A stretch of 64,000 bases of DNA from Candidatus Laterigemmans baculatus (lineage in GTDB: Bacteria; Planctomycetota; Planctomycetia; Pirellulales; Pirellulaceae), in NCBI RefSeq assembly GCF_010367455.1, contig NZ_WRPR01000042.1, forward strand, positions 62,001 to 126,000, in the 5' to 3' direction. The notes under the pieces are model-generated. The model searched no databases. It saw only the letters and a program-made list of their open reading frames with translations, and was not told the origin of the DNA. Each line of letters begins with the position of its first letter. Position 1 is the first letter of the stretch. Shown in pieces: positions 3,487 through 7,189 of the stretch. Position numbers and translations under genes: made by a program.

Positions 3487-3918
3487 TTACTGCCGGTCCT
3501 CGGCCTGCCGGCGGGAAAGGTAGCCCGCGCTGGTTTCAAAATACCGCCGGCGGCGCGTCTCGCGGTGCTCGGAGGTTTCCTCCCGCTTGGCCGCTTCCCG
3601 CTCGCGCTCCAGGTCGGTCAGGTTGGCGGTGCAGAAGCGGCAGCCGATCCGCTCCAGATGAAACCGAACGTAGCCCTCGGCCGCGGGATCCATCACGCCC
3701 AGCAGATACTGGCTGAGCTGTTCGCGGTCGGGGCAGGAGAGTCGATGCCGCCGCCAGATCGCCCCGATCGAGTGCATCCCCGCATCGACCTGCCCGCGAA
3801 TCGTCGCCAAGCGGTGATGGAGTTCCTCGTCATCCCGCAGTCGCAGCTCGATCTCCGCCATCTGGTCGGGCGGCAGGACCTCGTCGAGGAAGCCGCGGAG
3901 CTGAGAATCGGTGAACAT
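3487..3918 (-). CDS. Small Cys/His-motif protein at the end of the fab operon
   Basis: 143-aa soluble protein beginning MFTDSQLRGFLDEVLPPDQM. A motif near residues 89-101 (RFHLERIGCRFCTANLTDL) places a His six residues before a C-x2-C pair, resembling a zinc-binding or anti-sigma-like site but not the canonical H-x3-C-x2-C spacing. The C-terminus is rich in charged residues and probably helical. Its ATG lies 10 nt after the fabF stop on the same strand, so the two are probably cotranscribed and translationally coupled. Function unknown; a regulatory role in the operon is inference. Confidence 0.75.
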   Translation of the reverse strand: MFTDSQLRGFLDEVLPPDQMAEIELRLRDDEELHHRLATIRGQVDAGMHSIGAIWRRHRLSCPDREQLSQYLLGVMDPAAEGYVRFHLERIGCRFCTANLTDLEREREAAKREETSEHRETRRRRYFETSAGYLSRRQAEDRQ

Positions 3919-3928
3919 GGCGAGCCCT

Positions 3929-5212
3929 TTACACGTCCCGAGCCAGGCAGAGCGTGACGTTTTGGCCGCCGAAGCCGAACGAGTTGTTCAGCGCGTAGGC
4001 GATTTCCGCGTCGCGCGCCTCATTCGGCACGTAGTCCAAATCGCATGCCGGATCAGGGTTTTCGTAGTTGATCGTCGGCGGCAGGACCGAATCCCGCATC
4101 GCCAGCAAGCAGACGATCATCTCGGTCACGCCGGCCGCGGCGATCAGGTGCCCCATCATGCTCTTGGTGCTGCTGACCGGAACTTGAGCGGCCGCCTCGC
4201 CAAAAACTTCCTTGCAGGCCTGGGTTTCGACTTTATCGTTGACCGTGGTGCTCGTGCCGTGGGCGTTGACGTACCCGATGTCGCCCGGGTTGAGTCCGGC
4301 ATCGGCGATCGCCATCCGCATCGCTGCGATCGCGCCGTGCCCATCGGGGGGAATATCGGTGATTCGGTAGGCGTCGGCCGTGGTCCCGTAGCCGACCACT
4401 TCGCCGTAGATCGTCGCTCCGCGGCGGCGGGCCTGCTCGTACTCTTCGAGAATCACCATCCCGGCGCCTTCACCGAGCACGAACCCGTCGCGGGTTTTGT
4501 CGAACGGCCGGCTCGCTTTGGTCGGCTCGTCGTTCCGCGTCGAGAGGGCGGTGAGGAGATTGAAGCCGGTCACGCCGAACGGGTGGATCATGCTGTGGGT
4601 GCCGCCAGCGAGCATCGCATCGGCGTCGCCCCGGCGGATGATCTCGCTCGCTTCCCCGACGGCTTGGCTGCTCGCGGCGCACGCGGTCAAGCAGTTGTAG
4701 TTGGGGCCTTGGGCATTGAACATGCCCGCCAGGTGGGCGGCCGGCATGTTCGGCTCCTGCTCGAGTTCGGCCGACGGATTGAGCAGTTCCAGTCCGCGGG
4801 CGATGAACTTGGCGACGTCGTATTCTCCCTTTTCGAGAGCCGCGGCCATCATCCGCGTGAACGTCAGAAAGTCCTGGTTCCCTTCGCCGCTGCCGAGGTA
4901 GATCCCAAACCGCACCGGATCGATCGAGGTTTCGAGGATCCCGCTGTCGGTCACCGCCTGCTTGGCCGCGCCGGCCGCGAAGCGGGTGTGGCGACCGCGG
5001 AGCTTCCAGACTTCCGGGTCTTCACCGGAGTCGGTGATGTCCCAGTTTTTGACTTCGGCGGAGATCTTCGTGGGAAAGCCACTGGCGTCGAAGAGCGTGG
5101 TGTAGCCCACCCCGCTGTGCCCCTCGCGGAGCCCGTTCCAGACCGTCTGGGCATCATGTCCCATTGGGTTAATCAGGCCAATTCCAGTGACGACAACGCG
5201 GCGGCGGGACAT
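3929..5212 (-). CDS. fabF: 3-oxoacyl-ACP synthase, KASII/FabF type
   Basis: 427-aa condensing enzyme that elongates acyl-ACP with malonyl-ACP. The catalytic triad is intact: Cys178 in LTACAASS, His318 in VNAHGTSTT and His355 in MMGHLIAAAG, with the C-terminal NNSFGFGGQN loop. Residues ~140-162 hold a short insertion (LELLNPSAELEQEPNMP). It is the fourth gene of a leftward cluster: FabZ-like, ACP, His-less FabZ-like and FabF, 68 nt downstream of the previous gene. The dedicated ACP suggests a specialised acyl pathway rather than bulk fatty acid synthesis; that is inference. Confidence 0.92.
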   Translation of the reverse strand: MSRRRVVVTGIGLINPMGHDAQTVWNGLREGHSGVGYTTLFDASGFPTKISAEVKNWDITDSGEDPEVWKLRGRHTRFAAGAAKQAVTDSGILETSIDPVRFGIYLGSGEGNQDFLTFTRMMAAALEKGEYDVAKFIARGLELLNPSAELEQEPNMPAAHLAGMFNAQGPNYNCLTACAASSQAVGEASEIIRRGDADAMLAGGTHSMIHPFGVTGFNLLTALSTRNDEPTKASRPFDKTRDGFVLGEGAGMVILEEYEQARRRGATIYGEVVGYGTTADAYRITDIPPDGHGAIAAMRMAIADAGLNPGDIGYVNAHGTSTTVNDKVETQACKEVFGEAAAQVPVSSTKSMMGHLIAAAGVTEMIVCLLAMRDSVLPPTINYENPDPACDLDYVPNEARDAEIAYALNNSFGFGGQNVTLCLARDV

Positions 5213-5279: not shown

Positions 5280-5804
5280 TTACCGCTCGACCGTCACCGG
5301 CAGCGGTTGCCCGGAGGCATCCACGGCGACTTCAAAGAAATTCATCAGCTGCAGCATCGTTTGCAGCTCATCGGGCGGGAACAGCGTGTGCTCTCCAAAC
5401 CGTTCATCGTCGAGGAACGCAAACATCAGTTGGACGTCCGCTTGGGGGCGGCCCCCACTCAAGGGACCCTCGCTCAGATGGCTCGTGCAGCTCACCATCG
5501 CCCCATCCTCTTGGACCGTCTCCAAGCGGGCGTGGTAGCGGAGCTGGTCGCCGGGGGTCGCTGGAAGATAGAACTCGGCTTTGGCAACTTTGGCCAGCAC
5601 GACGCGCTTGCGAAAATCGAGGTGCTCCGACACCAGAATCCCCCCCAGCTGCGCCAGCCCTTCGATAATCAAAGTGCTGGGCAGGTAAGGGTATCCCGGG
5701 CAGTAGCGATCGAGCGCTTCCTCGTCGAGCGCGACGTTTTTCACCGCCGTGGCCTCGCTGCCGCTGTGAAAAGTTTCAAAGCGATCGATCCAAAACCAAC
5801 GCAT
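5280..5804 (-). CDS. FabZ-like hot-dog protein lacking the catalytic histidine
   Basis: 174-aa single hot-dog-fold protein related to 3-hydroxyacyl-ACP dehydratase FabZ. In the active-site helix it reads YCPGYPYLPSTLIIEGLAQ: Glu48 is kept but the catalytic His is Tyr34. The second family member of the same operon (6486-6974) has His34 and Glu48 at identical positions. It may therefore be the inactive partner of a heteromeric dehydratase, or a thioesterase or binding subunit. The start is ATG at 5804; an open frame extends upstream but overlaps the ACP gene with no similarity. It lies 41 nt after the ACP stop. Confidence 0.85.
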   Translation of the reverse strand: MRWFWIDRFETFHSGSEATAVKNVALDEEALDRYCPGYPYLPSTLIIEGLAQLGGILVSEHLDFRKRVVLAKVAKAEFYLPATPGDQLRYHARLETVQEDGAMVSCTSHLSEGPLSGGRPQADVQLMFAFLDDERFGEHTLFPPDELQTMLQLMNFFEVAVDASGQPLPVTVER

Positions 5805-5845
5805 AGCAGGGGTCGCTCGGGGAGAAAGCGGTCGGTGGGAAAACG

Positions 5846-6238
5846 CTAGCTGCCGATTTTCGATTCGACGTAGCGGCACATGTCCTGAACGGTCAGCAGG
5901 TCGCCGAAATCCTGGACGCGGGGGTTCTCTTCGAACTTGCTCAGGTCGGCCCACGGCATCCGCCGCTTCAGTTCGGTCAGCCCTTCCGGGGTGACCTTGC
6001 CGTCCTGGACATACTGGCTGTTGGTCAGGATGTCTTCGGGCGACAGTTCTTCGCGGGGAATCTGGATGTTGAAGGCTTTTTCGAGCTTGAAGACGATGTC
6101 CAGGAAGTCGATCGATTCGGCGCCGAGGTCGCCGACCAAGGTCGCTTCCGGAGTGACTTCTTCATCATCGACACCCAGAGCGTCGACGAGCGCTTCCTGG
6201 ACCTTCTCGAAAACTTCCTCGCTGGTATGCGCCATCAT
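5846..6238 (-). CDS. Acyl carrier protein, elongated form
   Basis: 130-aa ACP; the usual length is ~80. The phosphopantetheine-attachment serine is Ser42 in GDLGAESIDFLD (ESI rather than DSL). Helices 1 and 2 look standard (FEKVQEALVDALGV...; FKLEKAFNIQIP). About 45 extra residues, NSQYVQDGKVTPEGLTELKR onward, separate helix 2 from the last helix (LLTVQDMCRYVESKI). ATG at 6238 is preferred over 6235 because AGAAGGAA is closer to ideal spacing. It sits between the two hot-dog dehydratase-like genes and fabF, so it is presumably their dedicated carrier. Confidence 0.9.
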   Translation of the reverse strand: MMAHTSEEVFEKVQEALVDALGVDDEEVTPEATLVGDLGAESIDFLDIVFKLEKAFNIQIPREELSPEDILTNSQYVQDGKVTPEGLTELKRRMPWADLSKFEENPRVQDFGDLLTVQDMCRYVESKIGS

Positions 6239-6485
6239 CCGGTTCCTTCTAAAAGGCAATGGAGTAACTTGATTTCAAACGTATCGTCGCCATCGGGGCG
6301 GTGACTTTGACGGCAATCGGCCGCTGCGGTCCCGCCGCTGGGGTTTTGCCCGCCGCTGGGGTCCTGCACAAGTTCCGCTCAGGGGCCGACCTCGCCTGCT
6401 GCTCTACCCAGTCATCCCAGGGTGCCCAAGCTGCCTCGGTGTTGCGGCGAGCCCAAGCTGCGCGGTAAGCCCAGCCCGCTGCGGC

Positions 6486-6974
6486 TTATGCCAAAGGTAC
6501 AGTGGCGGGGACTTCGCCGAAAAGCTCAGTAAATTGTTTTCGCACTCGGCTGCGGACATCCTCGTTCCGCTTCAGCCGCGGATCGCTCGGCAGTTCGCCC
6601 CGCTCGAGCACGAGCCTGGCCGAAACCGTCGTCCGCTCTCCCTTGCGTGCGAGCGTCTTGACGGTCACCAGCGGGCCCGCTTCGCGGACCAGTTCGGCAA
6701 CGATCTCGAGCGTTTCGCCGGGGGCAAGAAAATCGGCGAATTTGACGCTCTTGGCCTCCCGCATCATGACCAGCGGGTGAGCGAAATCGTCGCCCGTGCG
6801 GACCATCCACATCGCCGCCTGATAGGCCGCTTCCAGCATCATCACTCCGGGCATCACCGGAAAATGGGGGAAGTGGTCGCGGAGGTATTCCTCCTCGGCC
6901 CGCAGGGTGCGACGGGCGACGATCCGTCGACCAGGCTGCAGTTCAGTAATGGAATCGAGCTGGGAGAAACGCAT
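6486..6974 (-). CDS. fabZ: 3-hydroxyacyl-ACP dehydratase, FabZ family
   Basis: 162-aa hot-dog protein with the full FabZ signature DHFPHFPVMPGVMMLEAAYQ: catalytic His34 and Glu48. It dehydrates 3-hydroxyacyl-ACP in the elongation cycle. ATG at 6974 was chosen because homology begins there; a longer frame to 7151 lacks family similarity. It is the first gene of the FAS-like operon, separated from the ACP gene by 247 bp that holds only a duplicated CCCGCCGCTGGGGT module. The His-less paralogue at 5280-5804 aligns without gaps around the active site. Confidence 0.9.
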   Translation of the reverse strand: MRFSQLDSITELQPGRRIVARRTLRAEEEYLRDHFPHFPVMPGVMMLEAAYQAAMWMVRTGDDFAHPLVMMREAKSVKFADFLAPGETLEIVAELVREAGPLVTVKTLARKGERTTVSARLVLERGELPSDPRLKRNEDVRSRVRKQFTELFGEVPATVPLA

Positions 6975-7189
6975 GGGCGGCGACGGTTCCAAAGGTCCCG
7001 GAAGCGATAGAGGCGGCCCTAGAATAGTTTCCCCGTTTTTCCCACTCAACCGCAGTTGCGAAACTCTGCCCATGCTCGGCAAATTCGCGTTGCGGTGAGT
7101 CGAATCCGAAAGCACTACCCCGCGCCGGAAAATAACTCGCGTGGGGCGCATATCGGATTCGCACGGAAAGCGTCAATCCCGATCGCCGC

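Follow-up and report, generated by a model that had tools for sequence, protein, structure and literature searches.

The active site of FabZ from Helicobacter pylori is composed of His58 of one subunit and Glu72' of the other (PMC2692856, available text), and in FabA the residues of each site likewise come from different subunits (PMC2698920, available text). The HadAB dehydratase of mycobacteria is a hotdog heterodimer of the hydratase-2 (MaoC) type with one active site, for which HadB gives both the His and the Asp and HadA the acyl channel, according to the accessible parts of PMC4491049. A heterodimeric dehydratase with a single active site has also been described from the aryl-polyene (APE) clusters, namely ApeI/ApeP (PMC8041823, in part). 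Within the accessible portions of the open-access literature, no paper was found on the pair of hotdog proteins considered here or on a composite heterodimeric FabZ, and ApeI/ApeP is the nearest precedent.

In this study, a window of 64,000 nucleotides from the genome of Candidatus Laterigemmans baculatus (Pirellulaceae) was analyzed, in which two FabZ-like hotdog proteins, A and B, are encoded together with an acyl carrier protein and a ketosynthase. The features of this operon are as follows.

6486-6974, minus strand: protein A, FabZ-like hotdog subunit with His34 and Glu48 (PF07977, 53.3 bits), the putative donor of the catalytic His
6873-6875, minus strand: His34 of A, codon CAC
6831-6833, minus strand: Glu48 of A, codon GAA (replaced elsewhere by Gln, in 12 of the 214 distinct A domains)
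5846-6235, minus strand: acyl carrier protein (ACP) of 129 amino acids, between A and B (PF00550, 45.8 bits)
5280-5804, minus strand: protein B, FabZ-like hotdog subunit lacking the catalytic His (PF07977, 39.9 bits; predicted fold similar to FabZ), the putative donor of the catalytic Glu
5703-5705, minus strand: Tyr34 of B, aligned with the catalytic His of FabZ, codon TAC
5661-5663, minus strand: Glu48 of B, codon GAA (conserved in all 233 distinct B domains)
3929-5212, minus strand: FabF-like beta-ketoacyl-ACP synthase (TIGR03150, 496.2 bits against a cut-off of 493.75)

Translation of 6486-6974 (minus strand) gives the motif L-R-D-H34-F-P-H-F-P-V-M-P-G-V-M-M-L-E48 for A, and translation of 5280-5804 (minus strand) gives L-D-R-Y34-C-P-G-Y-P-Y-L-P-S-T-L-I-I-E48 for B. 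Numbered from the Met start of each protein, the His or Tyr is residue 34 and the Glu residue 48 in both, gap-free, which bears out the coordinates and residues of the original prediction, where His34 had been set against Tyr34 at the same position with Glu48 in both proteins. The reading frame of A is open upstream to an ATG at 7151, and the start at 6974 is consistent with the MRF/MRW starts that are frequent among its relatives. The catalytic His and Glu of a FabZ are found in one chain in A and not in B. Both proteins pass the 23-bit cut-off of the FabA domain (PF07977) and both miss the FabZ equivalog cut-off of 155.15 bits (TIGR01750) by far, with 65.8 bits for A and 69.5 bits for B. A monomer model of B, calculated with AlphaFold2 from a 32-row alignment (mean pLDDT 82.4), had FabZ from E. 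coli (6n3p) and P. aeruginosa (1u1z) as its top structure matches (E 2.7e-10) and thus predicts a FabZ-like fold; the region of residue 34 is among the less sure parts of the model (mean of 66 in block 31-40).

The source genome contains four FabA-domain proteins, namely A, B and single ones on contigs C34 and C43, in both of which His and Glu are present. The ketosynthase of the window has Cys178, His318 and His355, all present in the sequence, as well as Lys350. The Pfam ACP domain match lies wholly within residues 10-64 of the ACP, with a long C-terminal part beyond. Downstream of the ketosynthase, positions 3487-3918 encode a small protein with a weak zinc-finger (zf-HC2) match below the Pfam cut-off, perhaps an anti-sigma factor, and positions 511-2670 are spanned by a long frame containing runs of the in-frame repeats SATGQA and SEPGGS, the product of which we take to resemble folylpolyglutamate synthase with inserted repeats.

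B was searched for in 294 genomes of the phylum and 100 of the family, and a profile search covered 392 genomes of the phylum; many of the genomes are metagenome-assembled (MAGs). B was present in 83 of these 392 genomes (match >170 bits, with a clear gap to the next score of 124.6) and is widespread in the phylum yet far from universal. A scan of named genomes, taken as the best 80 of 565 confirmed stretches and silent on the absence of B from other phyla, yielded 66 B by a two-profile test and 14 ordinary FabZs from other phyla. Among the 66, one is labelled Alphaproteobacteria (L187) and one Bacteroidia (L235), where our guess is wrong binning, and L179, L219 and L231 are without a phylum label.

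A, ACP and B occur in that order on one strand in 177 of the 198 loci with a B-type call, a set in which a few genomes are duplicated and two loci, L074 and L076, are B-like but belong to a different type of cluster. In a tree of 176 loci, the Tyr rows fall within one 87-row His-less clade (81 Tyr; support 95), mainly of Pirellulaceae, the non-Tyr residues at position 34 being Asn, Gln, Glu, Trp or Cys. Given the shared gene order and this prevalence of Tyr, the observation made in the window is more than chance. Since one clade holds the Tyr rows, the loss of His from B of Pirellulaceae is old and has been retained through the diversification of the family. Outside this clade most B retain His, and five rows of the family (L037, L038, L150, L154 and L159) are among the His-bearing ones. 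The original prediction had itself raised a recent, single-genome change to Tyr34 as a case against it; this was looked for and is excluded by the spread over family genomes and the 87-row clade. The His loss, the conservation of which across planctomycetes it had proposed to check by alignment, is not general but marks the Pirellulaceae clade, whereas most other B keep His and a complementary change of Glu to Gln is found in A elsewhere. B as a pseudogene is ruled out by the open frames and by the Glu in all distinct B domains.

The losses are one-sided. With exact duplicates removed, and with domains taken at >100 bits and at least 20 bits above the other model, all 214 distinct A domains had the His and all 233 distinct B domains had the Glu. 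His was lost from 97 of the 233 B domains (Tyr 87, Asn 4, Gln 2, Cys 2, Trp 1 and Glu 1), and Glu was replaced by Gln in 12 of the 214 A domains; five further A proteins, outside the 214, had His in 5/5 and Gln for Glu in 2/5. These counts exclude L087, where a deletion in B spans the His and which is counted in the 198-row set and the tree, and may exclude the B-like His/Glu proteins encoded at L074 and L076, which are counted among the 198 rows; an earlier count comprised 198 B rows and 179 A rows, plus one A cut short at a contig end (L146, a gap row). All four residues were retained in 108 of 217 loci (106 of 208 distinct pairs). As controls, FabZs of the C43 type had His and Glu in 30 of 30 loci, these being the best-scoring from 60 genomes searched, and FabZs from other phyla had both residues in 14 of 14 cases.

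Loss of His is, however, not unique to the A/B pair. Two distant, low-scoring hotdog proteins are also His-less, one at L074:2412-3557 (minus strand) without Glu and one at L076:5813-6430 (plus strand) with Glu present; the remaining proteins that were neither A nor B in the same comparison were His/Glu. The ketosynthase clusters of L074 and L076, which are of another type, also encode a His/Glu FabZ-like protein, and perhaps represent another, distinct type of dehydratase pair with unequal subunits. In L355, L359, L365, L367 and other loci, B has insertions of very variable length in the loop directly after the catalytic His, with His and Glu retained.

By parsimony on the 176-locus tree, calculated with the motif columns removed, at least six changes are needed at His of B and at least nine at Glu of A, some of which may be reversions to Glu; many inner branches of this tree are weak (48 of 167 open), and the starred branches alone give at least five changes, for the His/Gln group. 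Trees from partial data, with 175 rows each, gave six and nine changes (A plus ACP) and five and nine (B plus ACP) at the two positions, respectively. No row in these trees is without His in A or without Glu in B, and L352, an Asn case found later, is absent from them. All 15 of 15 changes fall on one composite site, for which the chance is about 6 in 100,000 if equal odds and independent changes are assumed; the comparison is made within each residue type (His of A with His of B, Glu of A with Glu of B), so that residue-type mutability is partly controlled. As a FabZ site consists of the His of one subunit and the Glu of the other, every loss spares the site that His of A and Glu of B would form in an A:B dimer.

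In a Phycisphaerales MAG (L189), both residues of the other composite site are gone, A being His/Gln (CAG) and B Asn (AAT)/Glu, and therefore neither homodimer would have a complete His/Glu dyad and only an A:B dimer would; this is a single MAG, and either change could arise from one base. Furthermore, His-less B is most strongly relaxed near the His, at positions 30, 32, 33, 35 and 41, and its Glu helix is preserved, with Glu48, Ala51, Gly55 and Leu57 at 98-100% and Gln52 at 96%, a comparison that is weak because the His-less set is mostly one clade and because the relaxation extends beyond the His loop, to positions 53, 59, 68 and 84.

Natural fusions and co-occurrence also connect A with B. 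Four A-B fusion proteins were read (L153, L172, L176 and L283), the A part being His/Glu and the B part Tyr/Glu in all of them, and three more candidates come from shared open frames (G302:C59, G362:C194 and G378:C27). Of the 100 family genomes, 97 contain A (E 1e-30), and the other three gave no B match either. A B match occurs in the same 97, the match in G314 being A itself near a contig end, and true B is present in 96 of 100 (in G332 and G310 as pieces only). Seven genomes with a His-less B have no complete A at the fetched locus, and A or part of it was found in all seven: away from the B locus in G303, G349, G363, G387 and G492, truncated at a contig end elsewhere in G393, and cut by the contig end in G388. 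Where a His-bearing B has no A nearby, A was found elsewhere in G391, G392, G394, G395, G414, G456, G457 and G493, and was searched for and not found in G390, G396, G422 and G433. The genome G433 is a single contig and 98% complete; G390, G396 (which carries the Bacteroidia-labelled locus) and G422 are fragmented, incomplete assemblies. Since G433 is near-complete and no A was found in it, B seems able to stand alone where its own His is retained.

It is considered likely that A and B form a heterodimeric dehydratase with one composite site, which would work like ApeI/ApeP and unlike HadAB. Comparative evidence, namely the one-sided loss, the fusions and the co-occurrence, gives good support to the original prediction of a heteromeric dehydratase with A as the subunit that provides the catalytic His. 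From the sequences we infer a physical pairing, activity, substrate and product as follows. The two FabZ-type hotdog subunits would pair as an A:B heterodimer, possibly inside a larger oligomer, and this pairing would be obligate at the least in genomes with one dead site, such as that of Laterigemmans baculatus. The dimer would contain two unlike sites, site 1 with His of A and Glu of B, and site 2 with His of B and Glu of A. Site 1, which alone is always retained, would catalyze the dehydration of 3-hydroxyacyl chains carried by the operon's ACP. Site 2 would be dead in this genome and most of the family, where Tyr replaces His in B, and dead or weakened in some other planctomycete lineages, where Gln replaces Glu in A, while many lineages would keep both sites. 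The Gln in A may be tolerated and not fatal, and the strong retention of Tyr in His-less B could indicate a role of its own. Together with the ACP, the ketosynthase and a ketoreductase, which lies near A and ACP in other lineages and would be located elsewhere in the genome here, the A:B dimer would constitute an elongation module for a fatty-acyl or polyene-type product.

The arrangement of A and B as separate homodimers, with A an ordinary dehydratase and His-less B a non-catalytic ACP-binding or acyl-binding protein, is improbable. The complete FabZ dyad in A of the window would fit such homodimers, as would the retention of both dyads by both proteins in half of the loci, where two homodimers and a two-site heterodimer are equally possible, and the few genomes with a His-bearing B in which A was not found; however, every A-less genome found has a dyad-complete B. 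A dead B homodimer would need no Glu48, yet all 97 His-less B retain this residue, and in the Gln48 lineages A would be a dead homodimer, yet its His is kept in 12 of 12. Homodimers are disfavoured because loss of Glu from a dead B and loss of His from a dead A would be expected to be equally harmless, and neither was found. In addition, separate homodimers would leave L189 without any intact dyad and are at odds with the natural A-B fusions. Less probable still is a B homodimer that is active by itself, with Tyr34 as a novel catalytic residue and an altered chemistry such as that of an isomerase, hydratase or thioesterase. The presence of Asn, Gln, Glu, Trp or Cys at the same position within the clade and the relaxation of the adjacent His-loop residues argue against a catalytic Tyr, which would also leave Gln48 in A of other lineages unexplained, despite the occurrence of Tyr in 87 of 97 His-less B domains from many genera and the existence of hotdog enzymes of other chemistry, such as the decarboxylase AmcE, which is itself His-bearing (PMC10698177, available text).

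A role of the A:B heterodimer in general fatty-acid synthesis, with no pathway of its own, would be mechanistically compatible with the composite-site dehydratase favoured here and is possible, if unlikely. The synthase of the operon scores barely above the general FabF cut-off and the pair is found in nearly all family genomes sampled; however, besides A and B the genome encodes two FabA-domain proteins in which His and Glu are present (on C34 and C43), and ketosynthase matches, one of which is weak, occur at seven further places; in addition, 57 of 60 family genomes gave a strong match to the C43-type FabZ (E 1e-28 or better). As for the specialized acyl or lipid pathway that the original prediction had derived from the ACP and FabF, both an ACP and a FabF-like ketosynthase are indeed present, and from this gene content such a pathway is plausible.

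Two ketosynthase genes follow B in 27 loci (L052, L055, L063, L065, L177, L181 and others). In 26 of these, Asp, Glu, Asn or Ser takes the place of the active Cys in the first of the two, which in this respect resembles a chain-length factor (CLF), two of these 26 (L074 and L076) not being A-ACP-B loci. The ketosynthase in the KS-CLF-like loci shows an asymmetric pairing akin to that of the dehydratase. No ketosynthase of >300 amino acids lies within 4.5 kb past B in 54 of 198 loci, in some of which the stretch ends. A same-strand gene family between A and ACP, approximately 1.4 kb before B, is found in 30 of 91 clustered loci, and the one representative scanned is a FabG/SDR-type reductase. 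Besides this reductase, the clustering of neighbours revealed nothing tied to the module among the larger same-strand clusters and a few others, with one representative each; it also yielded many antisense frames. The set of A, ACP, B, ketosynthase and reductase resembles a type II elongation module. Elsewhere in the source genome, a ketosynthase lies inside a 2606-residue open frame (G000:C91:41248-42006), which is probably a large polyketide synthase. As candidate pathways, the stieleriacine clusters of Pirellulaceae were rejected, as they are described, in the text available, as N-acyl amino acid synthase clusters, unlike the A/B operon, and the accessible text of PMC2649909, on ladderanes, does not describe the A/B pair. 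As regards the amx/ladderane genes of anammox bacteria, the closest PDB sequence match of A was the Scalindua FabZ 7qv0, at 48 bits too weak to speak for or against orthology.

On balance, we lean towards a two-site A:B FabZ heterodimer as the ancestral state, from which one and the same site would have been lost repeatedly and independently, through His of B or Glu of A, to give a family of one-site composite dehydratases that is separate from ApeI/ApeP by Pfam and forms the core of a widespread planctomycete acyl/polyene synthase. If true, this would provide a natural series from two sites to one, and from a symmetric homodimeric enzyme to an asymmetric heterodimer. It predicts that A plus B would be active and that His of A and Glu of B alone would matter, and it would indicate a widespread planctomycete lipid or polyene pathway. 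A practical caution is that neither gene should by itself be annotated as FabZ.

Compared with known systems, A/B shares with the homodimeric or hexameric FabZ the fold, as predicted by the model of B, and a putative composite His/Glu site; unlike FabZ, it consists of two unlike subunits, of which B is without the His, and both are well below the equivalog cut-off. The HadAB-like system named in the original prediction is the wrong model and such a mechanism is ruled out, because HadB alone bears both catalytic residues and is of the MaoC type (PMC4491049, accessible parts), whereas here B apparently supplies the Glu for the His of A. A search with the Pfam MaoC model (E 0.1) gave no match in P0001 and P0002, in which the His and Asp motif of hydratase-2 was not found, and B of L189 gave a weak MaoC match (E 0.021). 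Highly reducing type II polyketide synthases (KS-CLF, KR, DH and ACP) are similar to some other A/B loci, where the two ketosynthase genes may represent a KS-CLF pair or a gene of the FabG/SDR-type reductase family lies nearby, and differ from the window, where the operon has a single complete ketosynthase and no ketoreductase.

ApeI/ApeP, like A/B, comprises two unlike subunits of the FabA/FabZ fold, the heterodimer of A/B being deduced from sequence, and in both systems one cluster encodes a His-donor subunit and a His-less Glu-donor subunit. In the sequences from E. coli CFT073, aligned by eye, ApeP resembles B in having the Glu but no His, and ApeI resembles A in having the His; unlike A, ApeI is short (117 amino acids) and has Asp in place of Glu 14 residues after the His. 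Neither A nor B matched PF22818 (ApeI-like) or PF22817 (ApeP-like), and the sole PF22818 match in the whole genome, on C34, was below the cut-off. Unlike ApeI/ApeP, most B outside the Pirellulaceae clade are His-bearing, and the single-site state would have been reached by repeated separate losses. The principle of a one-site heterodimer is thus already known from ApeI/ApeP; what looks new in A/B is a separate case, in which a likely ancestral two-site state survives and the one-site state has been reached repeatedly via two complementary routes.
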